Origin: Bacteroidales bacterium
GTDB taxonomy: Bacteria; Bacteroidota; Bacteroidia; Bacteroidales; UBA6680
Reading direction: 5' to 3'
DNA: 64,000 nt
Assembly: GCA_025210735.1 (NCBI GenBank)
Contig: JAOARD010000062.1
Coordinates: forward strand, 62,001 to 126,000
Made by a program: the position numbers and the translations under genes. The notes beneath the pieces are model-generated. The model was not told the DNA's origin. It saw nothing but the letters and a program-made list of their open reading frames with translations, and did no database searches. Shown here in pieces: positions 2,781-40,237 of this stretch (the stretch's first letter is position 1; each line of letters opens with the position of its first letter).

Positions 2781-4670
2781 ATGAACACTAACAGAAAAAC
2801 CACAAAAGTAATCCCCGAATCAGGTGACATTGCAGTAAAAGAGTCTGAACATTCAATAACCGGGAACACAGAGTATACTGATCCTGACTTTGGTCCTTCA
2901 GGCAAACTATGGTCTAATCAGGTTCCGGATATTGCTAAAAGCAATAACATAAACAGATACCCAAGCGGGTATATAATTGAACCTCCAACAGACAATCCGG
3001 CTGCAATATATAACAGTCGTAGTAGTGACTATCCTCTACAACAAGAGTTTATACCCGAAAAATATGGCGAACTTCCTCCGAATGGTCAGGGTAATGATCG
3101 GTTAAAATCATTAGAGATAATGAAAGATTATTTTACAAAACAGAAGAATAACTTCATCGGCTATCAATGTGCAGTTCAACAGGATACAAACGATGATATA
3201 TCTGAATTCCTAAACATAAGTTTGAACAACGCAGGCGATCCGTTTAAAAATGGTTACTACACTATTAATGCTAAACAGGCAGAGAGAGGTGTTTTAGATT
3301 TTTTTGCATCGTTATGGCATGCACAATGGCCATCGTTACCAAAACCCAAACGAGATAAAAATATAACCGATACCGAGTATTATGAGTCACATGAATACAA
3401 AAAATACAAAGAGTCGTACTGGGGATATGTATTATCAATGGGATGTACAGAAGGTAATCTGTATGCTGTTCTCTCTGCACGCGATTACCTGTCCGGTTAT
3501 AGTTTAGTTGTTGATGACATTAACGAGAAACCAATTTATACACCAAAAACAGATAAGGATACCAACCCTAACAAATACACCCCTGTTGCATTCTACTCAG
3601 AGGCATCACACTACTCATTTGAGAAGGCTGTTCATGTTATGCAGATGAAAACATTTTATCAAATAGCCCTTGAAAATGGTTGGCAGAGCCCGATAGGTAA
3701 TAAATGGTCTGAAGCCGTTCCTGTTGATAAAAGAGGAAGCATTATTATTGATGATCTCGTTACACTTGTAAAATTCTTTGCCGATAAAGGATATGCCCCA
3801 TTTATATGCTTTAATTACGGTACAACATTCAAAGGAGCATATGATAATGTATCAGAGGCATGTAAGAGATTAAAACCAATATTCGAAGCCAACAATCTTA
3901 TAAACAGAGAGGTTTTAAATATCGACTCTGAAGGTAATATTAAGAAGGATTACCGCAGAGGTTATTGGATACATGTAGATGGTGCTTTGGGTGCCTCGTT
4001 AATGCCTTTTGTTGAGATGGCTGTTGAGAACAATAAATTGGACAGATCTGATCTGGCATCTTGTTTCGATTTCAGGATTGATGAGGTAATGTCGATAGTT
4101 ACAAGTGGTCATAAATGGTTAACTACATCGCCGCCAACAGGAATATACATGTCTAAAAACAGATACAGAATTACACCTGTTGCAACACCCGACTATATAG
4201 GATCGCCAGACACAACATTTGCCGGTTCCAGAAACGGATTATCTACTATGATACTGTGGAACTTAATAGCCAAAATCGGAATCAATGGATTTGCAGAACG
4301 TTCTGTAAAAACAATGCAGATGTGTAAGTATACAGAAGATAAATTGAAGGATCTGCAGAAAAAACTGAATAACTTTAATATCTGGCTTCATCGTGCACCT
4401 AACGGAGGTACATCATTAATATTCAGAAAACCTGTTGACAGAATAATGTTTAAATATTCTATGCCTATTGAGACAGAGATAATAAGAAAAGAAGAGGGGG
4501 TAATAAAACGTACTTATGCACATCTGTTTATTTTATGGGACAGAAGTAAACAGATGATTGATAGTTTGATTAATGATTTAAGTGAAGAGGGAGCCTTTGG
4601 TAAACCCGAAGATACAGAAGTATTTATTCCGTATAATAAAACGGAGTTGTTAAACAGATCTCTAAATTAA
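2781..4670 (+). CDS. PLP-dependent group II amino-acid decarboxylase (histidine-decarboxylase-like)
   Basis: A 629-residue cytoplasmic enzyme of the Pyridoxal_deC fold. HVDGALG supplies the cofactor-ring aspartate (D400) and SGHKW supplies the Schiff-base lysine (K445). The run FDFRIDEVMSIVTSGHKW resembles PLP-type histidine decarboxylases more than glutamate or tyrosine decarboxylases. It is much longer than the roughly 380-residue enterobacterial histidine decarboxylase, with about 170 extra N-terminal residues and insertions around 195-270. The substrate cannot be read from sequence. No amino-acid/amine antiporter lies beside it, unlike acid-resistance decarboxylase operons. It is monocistronic, with its own -7 box and a terminator shared with the GH92 gene. 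Confidence 0.8.
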   Translation: MNTNRKTTKVIPESGDIAVKESEHSITGNTEYTDPDFGPSGKLWSNQVPDIAKSNNINRYPSGYIIEPPTDNPAAIYNSRSSDYPLQQEFIPEKYGELPPNGQGNDRLKSLEIMKDYFTKQKNNFIGYQCAVQQDTNDDISEFLNISLNNAGDPFKNGYYTINAKQAERGVLDFFASLWHAQWPSLPKPKRDKNITDTEYYESHEYKKYKESYWGYVLSMGCTEGNLYAVLSARDYLSGYSLVVDDINEKPIYTPKTDKDTNPNKYTPVAFYSEASHYSFEKAVHVMQMKTFYQIALENGWQSPIGNKWSEAVPVDKRGSIIIDDLVTLVKFFADKGYAPFICFNYGTTFKGAYDNVSEACKRLKPIFEANNLINREVLNIDSEGNIKKDYRRGYWIHVDGALGASLMPFVEMAVENNKLDRSDLASCFDFRIDEVMSIVTSGHKWLTTSPPTGIYMSKNRYRITPVATPDYIGSPDTTFAGSRNGLSTMILWNLIAKIGINGFAERSVKTMQMCKYTEDKLKDLQKKLNNFNIWLHRAPNGGTSLIFRKPVDRIMFKYSMPIETEIIRKEEGVIKRTYAHLFILWDRSKQMIDSLINDLSEEGAFGKPEDTEVFIPYNKTELLNRSLN

Positions 4671-4689
4671 CAGAGATATAAAACAAAAA

Positions 4690-4717
4690 ATCCGAATCGC
4701 ATATGTGTGATTCGGAT
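4690..4717. terminator. Bidirectional intrinsic terminator
   Basis: ATCCGAATC (4690-4698) and GATTCGGAT (4709-4717) form a perfect 9-bp stem, with an A-run before and a T-rich stretch after. It ends the decarboxylase transcript and the minus-strand mannosidase operon. Confidence 0.85.
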
Positions 4718-4740
4718 CTTTCTTTATAAATTATATGATA

Positions 4741-7665
4741 CTATTTAAATGTTATCTCATCGGCAAATATAAATGCACCCAGACCAGCTCCCGGATGCCA
4801 TTCCGGACATATCTCAGGATTCTTTGCAACAACCTTTATTGATTTTGCTCTACGGTATGGGAATCTTGTTTTAAAGGTATATATGCTCACCTCTGTATCA
4901 TCATCGGGAGTAGTATTCATATCTGTAAATATTTTAGTATAATTCTCTCCGTCAGCCGACAGATAAAAATCAACATGCTTAGGCATAAAGATCCACGATC
5001 TGGCATCCTGAATACAGTTTATACTAATCTCACGCAGATACTTAACCTTATCAAATACTATCTCTGCTTCAAGATCTTTTATATAGAACCCTTGCCAATC
5101 GCCAGTTCTGAAATTCGGAGCTCCGGTAATACCATCAATTAATGCTTCATTACCACCCGCCATATATTGTCTGTGCCACTTATTGGTAAGCTTAATATTA
5201 ACATCGGTAGGTGTCTTGTGAAATACAGATGTAAGTTGCTTGCTCCTTCCCTCTTCAGATTCTGAATAGAAGTATAGCGTTGTTTTATCGTAAATAGTAA
5301 ATGGCTCTGTATACTCCTTAAAACTATTTCTTCTATTTGTAAATGAGTAATATATCTTAGTATCTTTATCTATACTTCCCAATGTAACAACAGTGCTGTC
5401 GCGGAATGTTCTTGATGCTCCGTTTACAAAAGGCAGAGGAATAATCTTATGTTCATTTATAACCGACGATGGTCTCTTATCCTTACTTACTCCCCACTCT
5501 TTATATGGTTTATCAACAAGTTTTATTACAAGCAGATCCTCTTCCATTAATTGCTTATGGGTAATATAGTTGTTATTAAACTCTTTTCTGTTAAGTGATG
5601 TAGCCTTAACATATTTACGTTCCTCTGACGGATTACTCCATATCTTAAGACTCTTTCCGTTCTCAAAGTATATTCGTACCCTGTCAAAAATAGGGCTACC
5701 AATAATATATTCACCATTCGACGGGTTTACCGGATACAGTCCCATTGCACTAAATACGTACCATGCCGACATCTGTCCGCAATCTTCGTTACCGCAAAGA
5801 CCATCAGGTTTGTTTGTATACTGTTCGCGCATAATTCGGCGAACCATCTCCTGTGTTTTCCATGGTTGTCCGGCGTAATTATACAGATATGCCATATGAT
5901 GACTTGGCTCGTTTCCATGAGCGTACTGACCTATTAAACCTGTAATATCGGCCTGATGTCTGCCCGATGTTTTTGCGGTAGTTGTAAACATAGAGTCAAG
6001 CATAGCAACAAAACTATCATCGCCACCATGCATATCAATAAGCGAATAGATATCCTGTGGTACATAGAAACTATATTGCCACGAGTTTGCCTCGGTATAG
6101 TTAAAATCAACCTCTGTTGGATCAAAAGGAGCCTTCCATGTCTGATTTAACTTAGGACGCATAAACTTAGATTCAGGATCAAAGATATTCTTATATGATT
6201 GAGCTCTCTTTGTAAATCTCTCATATATATCATTACGTCCCATCTTCTTTGCAACCTGAGCAATACACCAATCGTCAAAAGCATATTCAAGTGTTTTTGA
6301 TACACTCTCTGCATCAGAACTCAACGAAATATAACCATACTCTTTGTAGTGCTCCAATCCAAGATGATCCTGATCTGCACTATGCACCATTGCTGCAAGA
6401 AGTAACGAGTCGTTCTCTGTATATATACCCTTAAGATATGCATCTGCAATTACAGGAATAGCATGATAACCAATCATACATCCTGTATAATTTCCTGCAA
6501 GCTCCCAGATAGGAATAATTCCTCCACTCTGATATTGCGATATAAATGTATTTATAAAGCTCTTTGTGCGCTCCTGCTCCAATATTGTATATAGCGGATG
6601 TGTTGCTCTGTATGTATCCCATAACGAGAATACTGTATATGTATCGTCGTTTTTGTTTGTCATTATAGTTGAGTCCATTGCTCTGTAGCGACCATCAACA
6701 TCGCTAAACAGATTTGGGGCAATCATGGTATGATACAAGGCTGTATAGAAGGTTTCAATATCCTCCTCTTCGCCACCAGACACAATAATCTTGTTAAGCT
6801 GCTTGCTCCACTCAACATTATTTATCTCAAGAATATCATCAAAATCTTTTCCGGCAGCCTCTGTCATATAGTTCTTCTTTGCTCCATCAACATCAACAGC
6901 CGATATTGCAACCTTAACCTGAATCTTATCAACACCATCTGCAAAGGCTATATGAGCTTTTACATTATTACCCTCAATCTTTTTTAGATCATTATATATA
7001 GTATCGTTTTTGCTTACTGTAAATTTTGATACAGGAGCTGATGTTGTTGCAAAAAAGTAGATAACCTGATCCTGTGCCCATGCAGCACTGCGTCGCATAC
7101 CAACTATTGTGGTATCATTAACCATCTCTATATACGACTCTAATACTCTGTCGCGATGTTTAAGGTCTATAATAATACCTGCCCCATTTGCTTTTGAGTA
7201 TCTGTATCTGTGTGCTCCTACCCTTGCCGAAGCTGTAAGTTCTACATCTATCTTATCCTTATTCAGCAATACTGAGTAGTATCCGGCAGATGCATTCTCA
7301 TTCTTTTTAAAGAAATCTGATCTGTATCCTGGTTGTCCATCGGCACCATTATTAAACAGAGGTTCTCCTGATATCGGCATTAACAGTATATCACCATAAT
7401 CAGATACGCCTGTACCACTCAAATGTGTATGCGAAAATCCATATATCAAACTATCAGTATAGTGATAACCAGAACAACCATCCCAGCCATCAAGTCTGGT
7501 ATCCGGACTTAACTGAACCATACCAAAAGGATATGTTGCACCCGGATAGGTATGTCCGTGCCCTCCTGTTCCAATAAACGGATTTACATAATCAATAGGT
7601 TGTTTATCTTTACAACCTAACAGAATTAGAGCTGCTGCTGCAGCTACATATATTATTCTCTTCAT
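4741..7665 (-). CDS. GH92 alpha-mannosidase lipoprotein with chitobiase-C-like and discoidin-like domains
   Basis: A 974-residue exported glycosidase. The N-terminus ends LILLGC, a lipobox with C18, so it should be a surface or periplasmic lipoprotein. The GH92 catalytic region (about 25-730) shows GTGGHGHTYPGATYPFGMVQ, GNEPSHHMAYLYNYAG and GNEDCGQMSAWYVFSAMG, all hallmarks of this calcium-dependent exo-alpha-mannosidase family. Residues of about 740-815 look like the chitobiase C-terminal Ig-like module, and 825-970 look like an F5/8-type-C carbohydrate-binding domain. It is the last gene of an operon with a ROK kinase and a sugar MFS transporter. Linkage specificity (1,2, 1,3 or other) is not readable. 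Confidence 0.93.
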   Translation of the reverse strand: MKRIIYVAAAAALILLGCKDKQPIDYVNPFIGTGGHGHTYPGATYPFGMVQLSPDTRLDGWDGCSGYHYTDSLIYGFSHTHLSGTGVSDYGDILLMPISGEPLFNNGADGQPGYRSDFFKKNENASAGYYSVLLNKDKIDVELTASARVGAHRYRYSKANGAGIIIDLKHRDRVLESYIEMVNDTTIVGMRRSAAWAQDQVIYFFATTSAPVSKFTVSKNDTIYNDLKKIEGNNVKAHIAFADGVDKIQVKVAISAVDVDGAKKNYMTEAAGKDFDDILEINNVEWSKQLNKIIVSGGEEEDIETFYTALYHTMIAPNLFSDVDGRYRAMDSTIMTNKNDDTYTVFSLWDTYRATHPLYTILEQERTKSFINTFISQYQSGGIIPIWELAGNYTGCMIGYHAIPVIADAYLKGIYTENDSLLLAAMVHSADQDHLGLEHYKEYGYISLSSDAESVSKTLEYAFDDWCIAQVAKKMGRNDIYERFTKRAQSYKNIFDPESKFMRPKLNQTWKAPFDPTEVDFNYTEANSWQYSFYVPQDIYSLIDMHGGDDSFVAMLDSMFTTTAKTSGRHQADITGLIGQYAHGNEPSHHMAYLYNYAGQPWKTQEMVRRIMREQYTNKPDGLCGNEDCGQMSAWYVFSAMGLYPVNPSNGEYIIGSPIFDRVRIYFENGKSLKIWSNPSEERKYVKATSLNRKEFNNNYITHKQLMEEDLLVIKLVDKPYKEWGVSKDKRPSSVINEHKIIPLPFVNGASRTFRDSTVVTLGSIDKDTKIYYSFTNRRNSFKEYTEPFTIYDKTTLYFYSESEEGRSKQLTSVFHKTPTDVNIKLTNKWHRQYMAGGNEALIDGITGAPNFRTGDWQGFYIKDLEAEIVFDKVKYLREISINCIQDARSWIFMPKHVDFYLSADGENYTKIFTDMNTTPDDDTEVSIYTFKTRFPYRRAKSIKVVAKNPEICPEWHPGAGLGAFIFADEITFK

Positions 7666-8667: not shown

Positions 8668-10092
8668 TTAGTTTTTTATCTTTACATGATGCCCTTTCCA
8701 TCCGTAATATGCCAGATAAATATAGCATATCATTGGTACAAAGAACGAGTAGTGATATCCGTTAAACATATCAGCCACTGCACCCTGAACTATTGGTATA
8801 ATAGCTCCTCCAAGAATCATCATAACCAATAGAGATGATCCCTGACTTGTATATTTTCCCAGTCCTTTAATTGCAAGTGTAAATATGTTAGACCACATTA
8901 TTGAGTTAAACAGTCCAATACTTAATACACACCATAGTGCCACCTTACCAGTAGTAAGCATTGTTGTAATAAGCATTACAATTACCACTAATGAGAATAT
9001 CATAAGTGTTCTGGACGCTTTTGCAGAACCCAATCTGAACATTAAAAGATTAAGTATAATAAAACCGATATATGGTAAAATCTCATTGAATGTCATTGTA
9101 CGTTCAAGGTTTATTATACCAAATATTGTTAAGAATACTGCCGCTGCAACAAGTGTCATAAGCGCAGCTTTCTTTAATCCCATACGCATCTCACTCAGCG
9201 ATATAGCTCCAAGGAATCTACCAATCATTGCTCCTCCCCAATATAATGCCAGATACGATTTCGCATCCATCTCACTCAAACCTAAAAGCTCACCCATATA
9301 AGAGATAAGCACACTTCCTATACTAACCTCACCACCTACATACATAAATATTGCAACCATTCCAAGTACCAGATGACGGTGCTTAAGTGCACTAAATCCT
9401 TTAACCTCATCCTGACCTTTATGTATCTCAGGTAGTTTAGAGAACCATATTAATACTGCAAGACATAAGAAAAGTGCTGTAAATATCATATATGGTAACT
9501 GTACACCCATAGCCGACATTGTTGTTCCTGCATCAGTAAGTATCTCCGTACCTGCTTTGTTTAAAAGAGGATCACCCATCTTGGCAAAGTAATGAAATAC
9601 AAGATATCCCCCTACAATTGGTGCTATAGTTGTTCCTAATGAGTTAAATCCCTGCGAAAGGTTAAGCCTGCTTGACGATGTCTCTGACGGCCCTAATACC
9701 GCTACATAGGGATTTGCTGATATCTGCAAAAGTGTAAATCCGAGTCCCAATACAAACAGCGCTCCCAAAAACAGTCCGTATAATTTTAATTCAGCTGCAG
9801 GATAGAACAGAAGTGTTCCAAGTGCAGATATAATTAGTCCGGCAATTATTCCGTTCTTATAACCTATTACAGATATAGGGTCTCTCTTTAACGATAACAG
9901 AAAATATATGAGTGATCCTACAAAATAGGCTGTAAAAAAAGCAAATTGTATAAGCATAGACTCTGTTCTGCTCAATTCAAAAACCTTTTTTACATAGGGT
10001 ATCAGAATATCATTCATGCAGGTTATAAATCCCCACATAAAAAATAGTGAAGTCAACACTACCAGCGACTTGGTAAAGTTTTTAGTTTGCAT
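8668..10092 (-). CDS. Sugar MFS transporter, FucP/GluP (fucose-glucose-galactose-mannose:H+) family
   Basis: A 474-residue inner-membrane protein with about twelve hydrophobic segments. The family opening LTSLFFMWGFITCMNDILIP and the segment LLQISANPYVAVLGP are characteristic of the FGHS/FucP subfamily of the major facilitator superfamily. Members import monosaccharides with protons. It is the first gene of the operon that continues with the ROK kinase and the GH92 mannosidase, so mannose is the best guess for its substrate. The ATG at 10092 gives the expected N-terminus. I found no confident promoter in the 880-bp region upstream. Confidence 0.93.
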   Translation of the reverse strand: MQTKNFTKSLVVLTSLFFMWGFITCMNDILIPYVKKVFELSRTESMLIQFAFFTAYFVGSLIYFLLSLKRDPISVIGYKNGIIAGLIISALGTLLFYPAAELKLYGLFLGALFVLGLGFTLLQISANPYVAVLGPSETSSSRLNLSQGFNSLGTTIAPIVGGYLVFHYFAKMGDPLLNKAGTEILTDAGTTMSAMGVQLPYMIFTALFLCLAVLIWFSKLPEIHKGQDEVKGFSALKHRHLVLGMVAIFMYVGGEVSIGSVLISYMGELLGLSEMDAKSYLALYWGGAMIGRFLGAISLSEMRMGLKKAALMTLVAAAVFLTIFGIINLERTMTFNEILPYIGFIILNLLMFRLGSAKASRTLMIFSLVVIVMLITTMLTTGKVALWCVLSIGLFNSIMWSNIFTLAIKGLGKYTSQGSSLLVMMILGGAIIPIVQGAVADMFNGYHYSFFVPMICYIYLAYYGWKGHHVKIKN

Positions 10093-10271
10093 ATCAATAA
10101 TAATTGGTTCAGGATTGAAAAATACAACCGATAAGGTGATTTAACAAAAAAATAGAGGGTTCATTTATATGGTTTTGCAAAAAAACAGAGAATTGTGAAA
10201 TTAACTATAAAGTTGCCATAACATTCTGAAACAACACTATTGTTCTTATCAACATGAAATATTTTAAACGC

Positions 10272-10830
10272 TCATGAAAAACAGTAACTACATCAGCATT
10301 AATCTCAATCTTTCAAGATTAACTCTATCGACACTATGAGTGGCTTGAATCATTCAGAAATAATGAATGCTTGCTACATTATCCTTGTCAGGAGTAAGGC
10401 TGACGACATGGTATAAAGATCCAAATCTTCAGAAGTAATGCTGGCGACATTATCTTTGGGTTCAAATCGTCAGGAATAATGCTGGCGACATTGTCTTTGG
10501 ATTCAAATCGTCAGGAGTAATGCTGACGACATTGTCGGCGAGATCAAGTCGTGAGGAGTGACGCTAGCGACATTATCAGCGAGGTCAAATCGTAAAGAGT
10601 GACGCTGGCGACATTGGCGGCAGCTCCAAGTCGTCAGGAATAATGCTGGCGACATTGGCAACAGCTTCAAATCCTCAGGAGTAATGCTGACGACATTGTA
10701 GAAAGATCCAAATCCTCAGGAGTAACGCTAGCGACATTGTAGAAAGCTTCAAGTCGTCAGGAGTAACGCTGGCGACATTGGTGGCAACCTCAAATCTTCA
10801 GGAGTAACGCTGATGAGGTTGGCAGTAAAT
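10272..10830. repeat. Degenerate 41-bp tandem repeat array (about 14 units) in a non-coding gap
   Basis: This array fills most of the 880-bp gene-free stretch between the sugar transporter and clpX. Taking the first base after the conserved TCA as the phase mark, units occur at 10275, 10316, 10357, 10391, 10432, 10473, 10514, 10555, 10596, 10637, 10678, 10719, 10760 and 10801. Every step is exactly 41 bp except one of 34. The consensus core is roughly TCAAATCGTCAGGAGTAATG followed by CTGACGACATTG, then 10-13 variable bases. Arms TCGTCAG and CTGACGA could form a 7-bp hairpin with an 8-base loop. About five of the eleven best units pair fully when G-T is allowed. The left end is the most decayed. 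No reading frame spans it. I see nothing recognisable in the flanks (10093-10271 and 10831-10940). Confidence 0.9.
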
Positions 10831-10941
10831 AATTGAGCATCGTCTTTTTAAAACAATTATTATCTAATACAGCAAAACACTCTTTGCTCCAAGCAATTGT
10901 GCATATAATCAATCAATTTTAGATTTATAAATTATTATAAG

Positions 10942-10949
10942 TACATTTG
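10942..10949 (+). promoter_or_regulatory. Candidate -7 element (TACATTTG) for clpX
   Basis: This is a perfect TAnnTTTG match ending 23 bases before the clpX ATG, so the leader would be short. No TTTG is present at the -33 position. Confidence 0.5.
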
Positions 10950-10972
10950 TCAGCTGAAAAATAGTATAGTGT

Positions 10973-12187
10973 ATGGATAAATGTTCATTTTGCGGGACAA
11001 CCAGAGAGGAAGCAAATTTACTTCTTGCCGGACAGACAGGATTTATTTGTGATGAGTGTGTTTTCAGAGCACACGATATCCTAAAAGAGGAGTTGAGTGA
11101 TATTGATGGTTTTGACGTTGATAGTGTAGATATTAAAAAGCCTGTTGAGATAAAATCATTTCTTGATGAGTATATCATTGGTCAGGACGAGGCTAAGAAG
11201 TATCTTTCTGTTGCTGTTTACAATCACTATAAGAGAATCCAGAATCAGGATAAAACAGGTGATGTTGAGATTGAGAAGTCAAACATTGTTCTTGTAGGAG
11301 AGACTGGTACAGGAAAAACTCTTTTAGCACGTACAATTGCTAAGTTACTGCATGTTCCGTTTACTATTGTTGATGCTACAGTTCTTACAGAAGCTGGTTA
11401 TGTTGGTGAGGATATTGAGAGTCTTCTTACGCGACTGCTTCAGGCTGCCGACTATAATGTTGAGGCTGCTGAGCGTGGTATTGTTTTTATTGACGAGATT
11501 GATAAGATTGCCAGAAAGGGCGATAACCCAAGTATAACCAGAGATGTATCCGGAGAGGGTGTTCAGCAGGGATTACTTAAATTATTAGAGGGTTCGGTTG
11601 TTAATGTTCCGCCACAAGGAGGAAGAAAGCATCCTGATCAGAAGATGATTCCGGTAAATACTAAGAATATTCTGTTTATTGCAGGTGGTGCATTTGATGG
11701 TATTGATCGTAAAATTGGTCAGCGACTGAACACAAAGGCTGTTGGTTATAGCGCATCTAAAGAATCAGATGCCGTTGACAGAAATAATCTGCTACAGTAT
11801 ATTGCTCCTCAGGATCTTAAATCGTTCGGACTTATTCCTGAGATAATTGGACGTTTACCTGTTCTTACATATCTTAACCCACTGAACAGAGATGTTTTAC
11901 GTATGATTCTTACAGAACCTAAAAACTCTATTATTAAGCAGTATACTAAATTGTTTGAGCTTGATGATATTGAACTTAAGTTTGACAATGATGTTCTTGA
12001 CTACATTGTTGATAAAGCCGTTGAGTTTAAACTTGGTGCCAGAGGTTTAAGATCTATTTGTGAAGCTATTATGATGGATGCAATGTTTGATCTGCCATCA
12101 AAAGATGATAAAGAGTTTGTTGTAACTATTGAGTATGCAACAAAGAAACTTGAGAAGATTAATATGACTCGTTTAAGTGTAGCTTAA
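10973..12187 (+). CDS. clpX: ATP-dependent Clp protease ATP-binding subunit ClpX
   Basis: A 404-residue AAA+ unfoldase that feeds substrates to ClpP. The N-terminal zinc-binding domain is intact (C4, C7, C26, C29). Walker A GETGTGKT is at 109-116 and Walker B is IVFIDEID, followed by the GYVGED pore loop, the sensor-region GLIPEIIGRLP and the C-terminal LGARGLRSICE. The length is normal. No clpP gene precedes it; clpP-clpX is the usual pairing, so here clpX stands alone behind the 41-bp array with its own -7 box. Confidence 0.97.
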   Translation: MDKCSFCGTTREEANLLLAGQTGFICDECVFRAHDILKEELSDIDGFDVDSVDIKKPVEIKSFLDEYIIGQDEAKKYLSVAVYNHYKRIQNQDKTGDVEIEKSNIVLVGETGTGKTLLARTIAKLLHVPFTIVDATVLTEAGYVGEDIESLLTRLLQAADYNVEAAERGIVFIDEIDKIARKGDNPSITRDVSGEGVQQGLLKLLEGSVVNVPPQGGRKHPDQKMIPVNTKNILFIAGGAFDGIDRKIGQRLNTKAVGYSASKESDAVDRNNLLQYIAPQDLKSFGLIPEIIGRLPVLTYLNPLNRDVLRMILTEPKNSIIKQYTKLFELDDIELKFDNDVLDYIVDKAVEFKLGARGLRSICEAIMMDAMFDLPSKDDKEFVVTIEYATKKLEKINMTRLSVA

Positions 12188-39876: not shown

Positions 39877-39931
39877 CATCGCCTTTGAGAAAAAAGGCTT
39901 GTTCATTTGACGTTTTTAAAACGATGTTTAC

Positions 39932-40006
39932 GGGCGATTAGCTCAGTTGGTTCAGAGCACCTGCCTTACAAGCAGGGGGTCACTGGTTCGAATCCAGTAT
40001 TGCCCA
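39932..40006 (+). tRNA. tRNA-Val (anticodon TAC), copy 1
   Basis: A 75-base cloverleaf. The acceptor stem is GGGCGAT with ATTGCCC (one G-T pair). The anticodon stem CCTGC/GCAGG encloses loop CTTACAA with anticodon TAC. The T arm is CTGGTTCGAATCCAG and the discriminator is A. CCA is not encoded (CTA follows). Confidence 0.97.
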
Positions 40007-40045
40007 CTACCGAAACATCTTAATTTTCGGAATTAAACACATTCC

Positions 40046-40120
40046 GGGCGATTAGCTCAGTTGGTTCAGAGCACCTGCCTTACAAGCAGGGGGTCACTGG
40101 TTCGAATCCAGTATCGCCCA
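40046..40120 (+). tRNA. tRNA-Val (anticodon TAC), copy 2
   Basis: It differs from copies 1 and 3 by one base: the acceptor 3' strand is ATCGCCC, giving a fully Watson-Crick stem. It is followed by CCA in the DNA, which the other copies lack, so its 3' end may be encoded rather than added. Confidence 0.97.
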
Positions 40121-40159
40121 CCACCGAAATATCCTAATTTTCGGAATTAAACACATTCC

Positions 40160-40234
40160 GGGCGATTAGCTCAGTTGGTTCAGAGCACCTGCCTTACAAG
40201 CAGGGGGTCACTGGTTCGAATCCAGTATTGCCCA
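40160..40234 (+). tRNA. tRNA-Val (anticodon TAC), copy 3
   Basis: The sequence is identical to copy 1, with the G-T pair in the acceptor stem. It is followed within a few bases by an intrinsic terminator, so it is the last gene of the transcript. Confidence 0.97.
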
Positions 40235-40237
40235 CAG

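Follow-up and report, generated by a model that had tools for sequence, protein, structure and literature searches.

Plasmid iterons and partition centromeres are direct repeats spaced by whole helical turns, and they stand beside the gene (rep or par) of their own binding protein. REP sequences are short palindromic extragenic repeats, dispersed as copies of one consensus, and RAYT transposases partner them. In type III toxin-antitoxin loci, the repeats are 34–36 nt long and keep this length as their sequence diverges, and a Rho-independent terminator lies between the array and the gene (PMC5086642). The BrickBuilt minisatellite/MITE of Porphyromonas gingivalis has units of 23 bp that follow a single consensus, its ends are leader/tail inverted repeats, and promoter activity has been reported for it (PMC4596501).

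The array considered here lies upstream of clpX in a window of 64,000 nucleotides, which is part of contig C21 of G000, a 5.63-Mb Bacteroidales MAG. Judged from its sequence and from its relatives, it is best explained as a solo DNA element of a kind that would normally make up half of a two-part module. Such a module would comprise a helix-phased tandem array, then a promoter, then a gene for a small all-helical protein of the DUF6261 family, with a parallel version for PQLLE family proteins. Similar to iterons and centromeres, DUF6261 modules have direct repeats at whole-helical-turn spacing next to a gene. In contrast to them, they are chromosomal, occur as 14–25 paralogues per genome and encode no recognisable DNA-binding fold, and binding is here a prediction. 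The fixed-unit tandem array directly upstream of a small protein gene resembles the type III systems ToxIN, CptIN, and TenpIN. However, DUF6261 modules lack a terminator and have a promoter-like site between array and gene, their units are longer (41–42 bp), their copies per genome are far more numerous, orphan arrays exist, and no ToxN-like protein was found at them. BrickBuilt is likewise a multicopy intergenic tandem repeat near genes of Bacteroidales, whereas DUF6261 arrays have 41–42 bp units, differ in sequence from locus to locus, and are tied to a single protein family. A BrickBuilt-type MITE was rejected as an identification, as there is no consensus common to all copies and the arrays of paralogues differ. 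The gene-plus-array module is apparently undescribed, and no relevant paper on either DUF6261 or PQLLE was found in the open library searched.

Structure of the array upstream of clpX

TRF detects a period-41 array at 10387–10812 of the window with a score of 349, far above all other non-tRNA repeats there. After re-phasing, and with the unit listing and the relatives taken into account, the main array covers 10387..10837 on the forward strand. It comprises eleven 41-bp units in exact register, with starts at 10387, 10428 and so on to 10797, each step being exactly 41 bp, and with the core GAGTAAYGCTGRCGACNTTG. The decayed left end (10271..10386, forward strand) is recognised by matches to the unit consensus and holds two 41-bp units with starts at 10271 and 10312, which a shortened step of 34 bp separates from the main array at 10387. 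Identity at lag 41 is 0.69 over 10270–10830, and the ten best units have a mean pairwise identity of 0.75. The first-pass annotation had described a tandem array in strict 41-bp register with one 34-bp step, and this description holds for the eleven exact and two decayed units. Its division of the unit into a conserved core and a variable part is also borne out. The relatives of the main array are found at G000:C66, G002:C23, and G002:C9; in the comparison of four related arrays, 24 of the 41 consensus columns are the same in all, and the major-base frequency within arrays is 0.90–0.95 at conserved columns versus 0.74–0.88 elsewhere. Elsewhere in the window, a near-perfect 114-bp repeat (39931–40235) represents three tandem tRNA-Val (TAC) genes.

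No reading frame in the ORF list spans the array, which excludes a coding repeat for period 41, as had been claimed earlier. A CRISPR array, defined by constant repeats with unique spacers of at least 20 bp between them, was rejected as well, since the units are contiguous 41-mers and the ~13-bp variable part is common to them. An Rfam scan of the array region gave nothing above gathering.

The downstream neighbour is clpX (10973..12187, forward strand), identified from the ORF list and by a protein match in relatives. The spacer between array and clpX (10838..10972, forward strand) was compared with the sister-species locus L027. It contains a promoter-like pair on the forward strand, TTTTAG (10917–10922) and TACATTTG (10942–10949), judged by inspection against the Bacteroidota -33/-7 consensus. 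Both elements are unchanged in the sister species, so the array appears to stand upstream of the clpX promoter. On its other side lies a divergent MFS sugar-permease-like gene (8668..10092, reverse strand), taken from the ORF list and named from its sequence appearance. Identity to the sister species is 92.6% for the clpX coding sequence (~7% DNA divergence) and 89% for the permease-like one. None of the DUF6261 hits of G000 falls inside the 64-kb window. With no DUF6261 gene adjoining, and with clpX and the permease-like gene as neighbours, the array is a solo array, and its position is kept in both species (G000 and G002).

Arrays of the same sequence family in other genomes

A DNA search of G000 yields one further array of the clpX family, C66:9754–10204, which is 72% identical, advances in exact 41-bp steps, and stands upstream of a DUF6261 (PF19775) gene. 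In the sister species G002, also of UBA6680, one array occupies the orthologous clpX site, with an assembly gap inside it, and a second one lies where contig C9 ends. G001, the third genome that was available for the genus, has no match to this sequence family, and the neighbourhood upstream of its clpX differs. When 84,980 species genomes were scanned with a two-unit pattern, both G002 loci were recovered, together with two more 41-bp arrays, namely L035 in Bacteroidales Cd354_bin6 (genome G687) and L034 in a Chitinophagales MAG; the L034 match may be partly due to chance, because the scan pattern selects for period 41. With a tight pattern, multiple hits among 393 genomes of the order are confined to G000 and G002, and the viral contigs scanned contain no two-unit match. 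Absence of the consensus from related strains had been named in the first-pass annotation as one mark of a neutral satellite. The consensus instead recurs at a second locus of G000 and twice in the sister species, so this test does not refute the first-pass interpretation.

The units carry marks of the species in which they reside. Bases 40–41 are TC in 20/20 units of G000 (clpX and C66) and CA in 16/17 units of G002 (clpX and C9), the remaining one being TA, and other unit columns cluster by locus. The clpX solo array has species-specific changes in common with the other array of each species, and some exchange or a common trans-acting recogniser links unlinked arrays; the sharing could be gene conversion. 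At the G002 orthologue of the C66 gene, about one unit is left of the array. In one orthologue pair with proteins 85% identical, 10 units in one species face about one in the other.

At the C9 locus of G002 (L026, 9929–10490), the array enters the end of an ORF that is like the short ORFs beside an RHS-type gene at G000:C66. By inspection, this overlap suggests array insertion, recombination, or misassembly.

Association of arrays with DUF6261 genes

The genes just downstream of the C66 and L034 arrays belong to PF19775 (DUF6261) according to Pfam, with 64.8 and 80.1 bits against a gathering cut-off of 27. The family is rare in the phylum (6/296 genomes), and four Bacteroidales MAGs contain 14 (G000), 18 (G001), 15 (G002), and 25 (G687) hits, with paralogues within a genome mostly sharing 20–56% identity. 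At the first loci, TRF finds upstream tandem arrays of 41–43 bp at most DUF6261 genes, the sequence being different at each.

The association was measured in the 800 bp on each side of the gene by recording the lag, between 25 and 180, with the highest local identity. A flank was positive when its best lag fell at a multiple of 41.5 bp, with a tolerance of 1.5 bp that was scaled by the square root of that multiple. Positive flanks amount to 42/51 upstream versus 6/51 downstream, where 14% of lags would qualify by chance, and almost every DUF6261 copy has its own upstream array. Averaged over the upstream flanks, the spectrum has its maxima at 41, 82, 123, and 164. G687, which was fetched afterwards and has many arrays with 93–99% identity, replicates this result with 16/19 upstream versus 4/17 downstream. 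The layout of type III loci, an array upstream of a protein gene, is thus present at 42/51 and 16/19 DUF6261 genes. As controls, 1.25 Mb of G000 supplied 1554 windows, each 800 bp long; 11 of them were positive (0.7%), and five of these 11 lie at DUF6261 or PQLLE genes. Fisher enrichment against the controls is p=1e-11 in G000, 1e-22 in G001, 2e-11 in G002, 7e-9 in other families of the phylum, and 5e-26 in G687, values that are to be read with paralogues and orthologues being non-independent, control windows including coding DNA, and all Bacteroidales genomes being MAGs. The association of array and gene is strong and replicated.

The period is quantised. DUF6261 arrays have periods of 40–43 bp and multiples thereof, a half-period of 20.5 bp is absent within them, and the period is retained where units are just 50–60% identical. 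Period 41–42 recurs in distant Bacteroidota families with unrelated array sequences. Each array diverges one-to-one with its paralogue: resemblance is limited to orthologues or to the clpX/C66/C9 set, and the arrays of paralogues differ. The number of units varies between orthologues, higher-order repeats of 82/123/166 bp reflect repeated amplification, and some DUF6261 genes have decayed or absent arrays.

Several further features were seen around DUF6261 genes. In two genomes (L110 in G404 and L111 in G667), a gene like an XRE-type regulator, by inspection, lies directly upstream of the array and the DUF6261 gene. A 45-bp array (TGCGTGCAACGTCGCCACAG...) occurs in two species (G000:C56:30796–31036; L065, 2869–2999) near the same DUF6261 gene, the distance being greater in G000. 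A dispersed repeat of ~90 bp, ATGAAACGAAGCATGAG...CATATGACC, is present in short arrays of G000 (C31:109468, C36:108511, C36:230019, C40:117855, C65:112933), and some DUF6261 genes have similar sequence just upstream of them. At L201 (G000:C65, 15171–15701), and likewise at G002:C13, a protein of 177 aa with the motif MPNHVHGI is encoded directly downstream of a DUF6261 module; it is like REP-associated tyrosine transposases and has no Pfam match at E<=0.001. This neighbour in two species and the palindromic extragenic repeats are the points of likeness to REP/RAYT systems, whereas DUF6261 arrays have a fixed period and are private to each locus. In the search for phage carriage, DUF6261 gave a single hit, at 25% identity, in a 6-kb faecal record that has a phage label and no annotation, looks bacterial, and holds about two repeat units. 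No DUF6261 was found in plasmids, and no PQLLE in phage or plasmids.

The PQLLE family and other arrays

The array at C56:85562, at first seemingly solitary, precedes a 217-aa gene of a second multicopy family with 10 hits in G000, 19 in G002, and 3 in G001. The aligned members (34/34) match NCBIfam NF052641, 'PQLLE family protein'. Strong arrays upstream of PQLLE genes (n=18) have periods of 21, 42, 62–63, 84–85, 104–106, or 170 bp, all 18 of them no more than 2 bp from a multiple of 21, and some PQLLE arrays lie downstream of the gene. Several of these periods are not multiples of 3, so the arrays are not coding repeats. Unrelated DUF6261 arrays at 41–42 bp and PQLLE arrays at multiples of 21 bp strengthen the earlier proposal that the spacing of about four helical turns counts for more than the sequence.

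Other arrays in 1.25 Mb of G000 have varied periods such as 66, 88–92, 114, 138, and 185, which shows that 21 and 41–42 are not simply a local slippage preference. About five arrays in the same 1.25 Mb adjoin unrelated genes (Fic, cobI-like, and others), and an adjacent DUF6261 gene is therefore not required. A weak 41-bp array with identity 0.62 lies at L155 (G000:C36), at about 5334–5700, immediately upstream of a Fic/DOC-domain gene (4263–5333).

Predicted structures of the proteins

The AF2 model of DUF6261 is a confident one and shows an all-helical bundle (pLDDT 92.8). The PQLLE model is also confident and all-helical (pLDDT 93.5), with two copies of a short helix, a short helix, and a 56-residue helix. 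Foldseek finds no significant match for either model, VIA-align returns only generic helical bundles for both, and the PDB sequence search gives coiled-coil noise. The relationship between the two families is weak at the profile level (hhalign probability 5.7, pairwise E 0.0066), and together with the similar helix order of the models it suggests that they may be related. DUF6261 proteins are mildly acidic, with a median pI of 5.7 and a net charge of -4. This acidity, and a helical bundle with no significant fold match, do not suggest direct DNA binding by the DUF6261 protein. Pfam assigns these proteins to DUF6261 alone, with no ToxN, CptN, or TenpN assignment, and PADLOC gives no match of note.

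DNA-level and RNA-level readings

Inverted repeats inside units exceed chance in a subset of arrays (9/34 with p<0.05, Fisher 1.7e-6). Mismatches in array hairpins are 33 G-U and 37 A-C, with 31.3 G-U expected. Near-equal numbers fit double-stranded DNA and not a selected RNA strand, and an RNA role by G-U bias is not supported. A conserved RNA hairpin in the clpX/C66/C9 unit was rejected too: 58% of cells are paired, covariation shows no excess, and RNAalifold predicts zero pairs, which justifies the doubt about a hairpin voiced in the first-pass annotation. Terminator-like sites occur in 1/35 array-gene gaps (0.5 expected). Bacteroidota-type promoter-like sites occur in 16/35 gaps (7.5 expected), mostly 59–90 bp before the ATG, so the arrays apparently stand mostly upstream of promoters. 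Periods of whole DNA-turn pairs, strand-symmetric hairpin mismatches, and gaps that in many cases hold a promoter-like site but no terminator favour an array that acts at the DNA level, on one face of the helix, over an RNA antitoxin array.

Proposed mechanism and alternative explanations

In the proposed mechanism, each unit is a candidate site for binding on double-stranded DNA, and a length of four turns (41–42 bp) or two turns (21 bp) would keep the sites on one face of the helix at any copy number. The cognate DUF6261 protein, or a partner of it, would be the binder, and a stacked nucleoprotein platform would result ahead of the promoter. This platform would control the cognate gene, and a solo array upstream of another promoter, for example that of clpX, would recruit that gene. 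For units acting as phased binding sites on one helix face, as a platform upstream of a promoter, we estimate a probability of roughly 0.4. The wider proposal is more tentative, namely that each genome encodes dozens of small helical paralogues, each with a private helix-phased array recognised by the paralogue or a partner, that these make up many protein-DNA pairs independent of one another, and that solo arrays place clpX and other housekeeping genes under the same control.

An RNA module, in which the array has a promoter of its own and yields a repeat RNA that the downstream protein binds or cleaves in the manner of type III toxin-antitoxins, is unlikely. In its favour are the same layout of near-constant-length tandem units upstream of a small protein gene, the fast divergence of the multicopy paralogues, the excess of inverted repeats in a subset of arrays, and the length-keeping of type III repeats (PMC5086642). 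It is opposed by hairpins with no G-U excess, by promoter-like sites in gaps where type III loci have a terminator, by the lack of a nuclease-like fold in the AF2 model, and by the clpX/C66/C9 family doing without the hairpin. A rather unlikely explanation requires no cognate protein at all and takes the arrays as copy-number-variable promoter elements, that is, tunable spacers or curved DNA. Whole-turn units would persist because the gain or loss of a unit leaves the upstream region unrotated relative to the promoter, which agrees with quantised periods, positions upstream of promoters, unit numbers differing between orthologues, and solo arrays near other genes. However, it leaves unexplained the strong preference for two protein families and the species-specific bases common to unlinked arrays.

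Also improbable are selfish or neutral satellites that originate by slippage at a preferred length, spread by recombination, and happen to persist near DUF6261 genes because these lie in poorly constrained regions. Arrays do expand, contract, and decay, higher-order repeats record repeated amplification, and solo arrays exist. In contrast, satellites do not account for an enrichment seen on the upstream side of these genes and not on the downstream side, for one period in distant families with unrelated sequences, for a core conserved more than the remainder between species, or for a period that is kept at 50–60% identity between units. The interpretation in the first-pass annotation is partly supported: the emphasis on spacing is strengthened, and the neutral, decaying satellite is weakened. 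The main fact, the link to DUF6261 genes, was not visible from the sequence of the window. The platform of phased binding sites upstream of a promoter is the reading that we prefer.

Significance

The module provides a first functional handle on two uncharacterised and strongly expanded protein families. Many seemingly unrelated minisatellites in these genomes fall into a single class, and what defines it is period and gene context, not sequence. Should the arrays be cognate binding sites, these genomes would hold tens of independent recognition pairs, which could be used for studies of specificity diversification and as orthogonal DNA parts.
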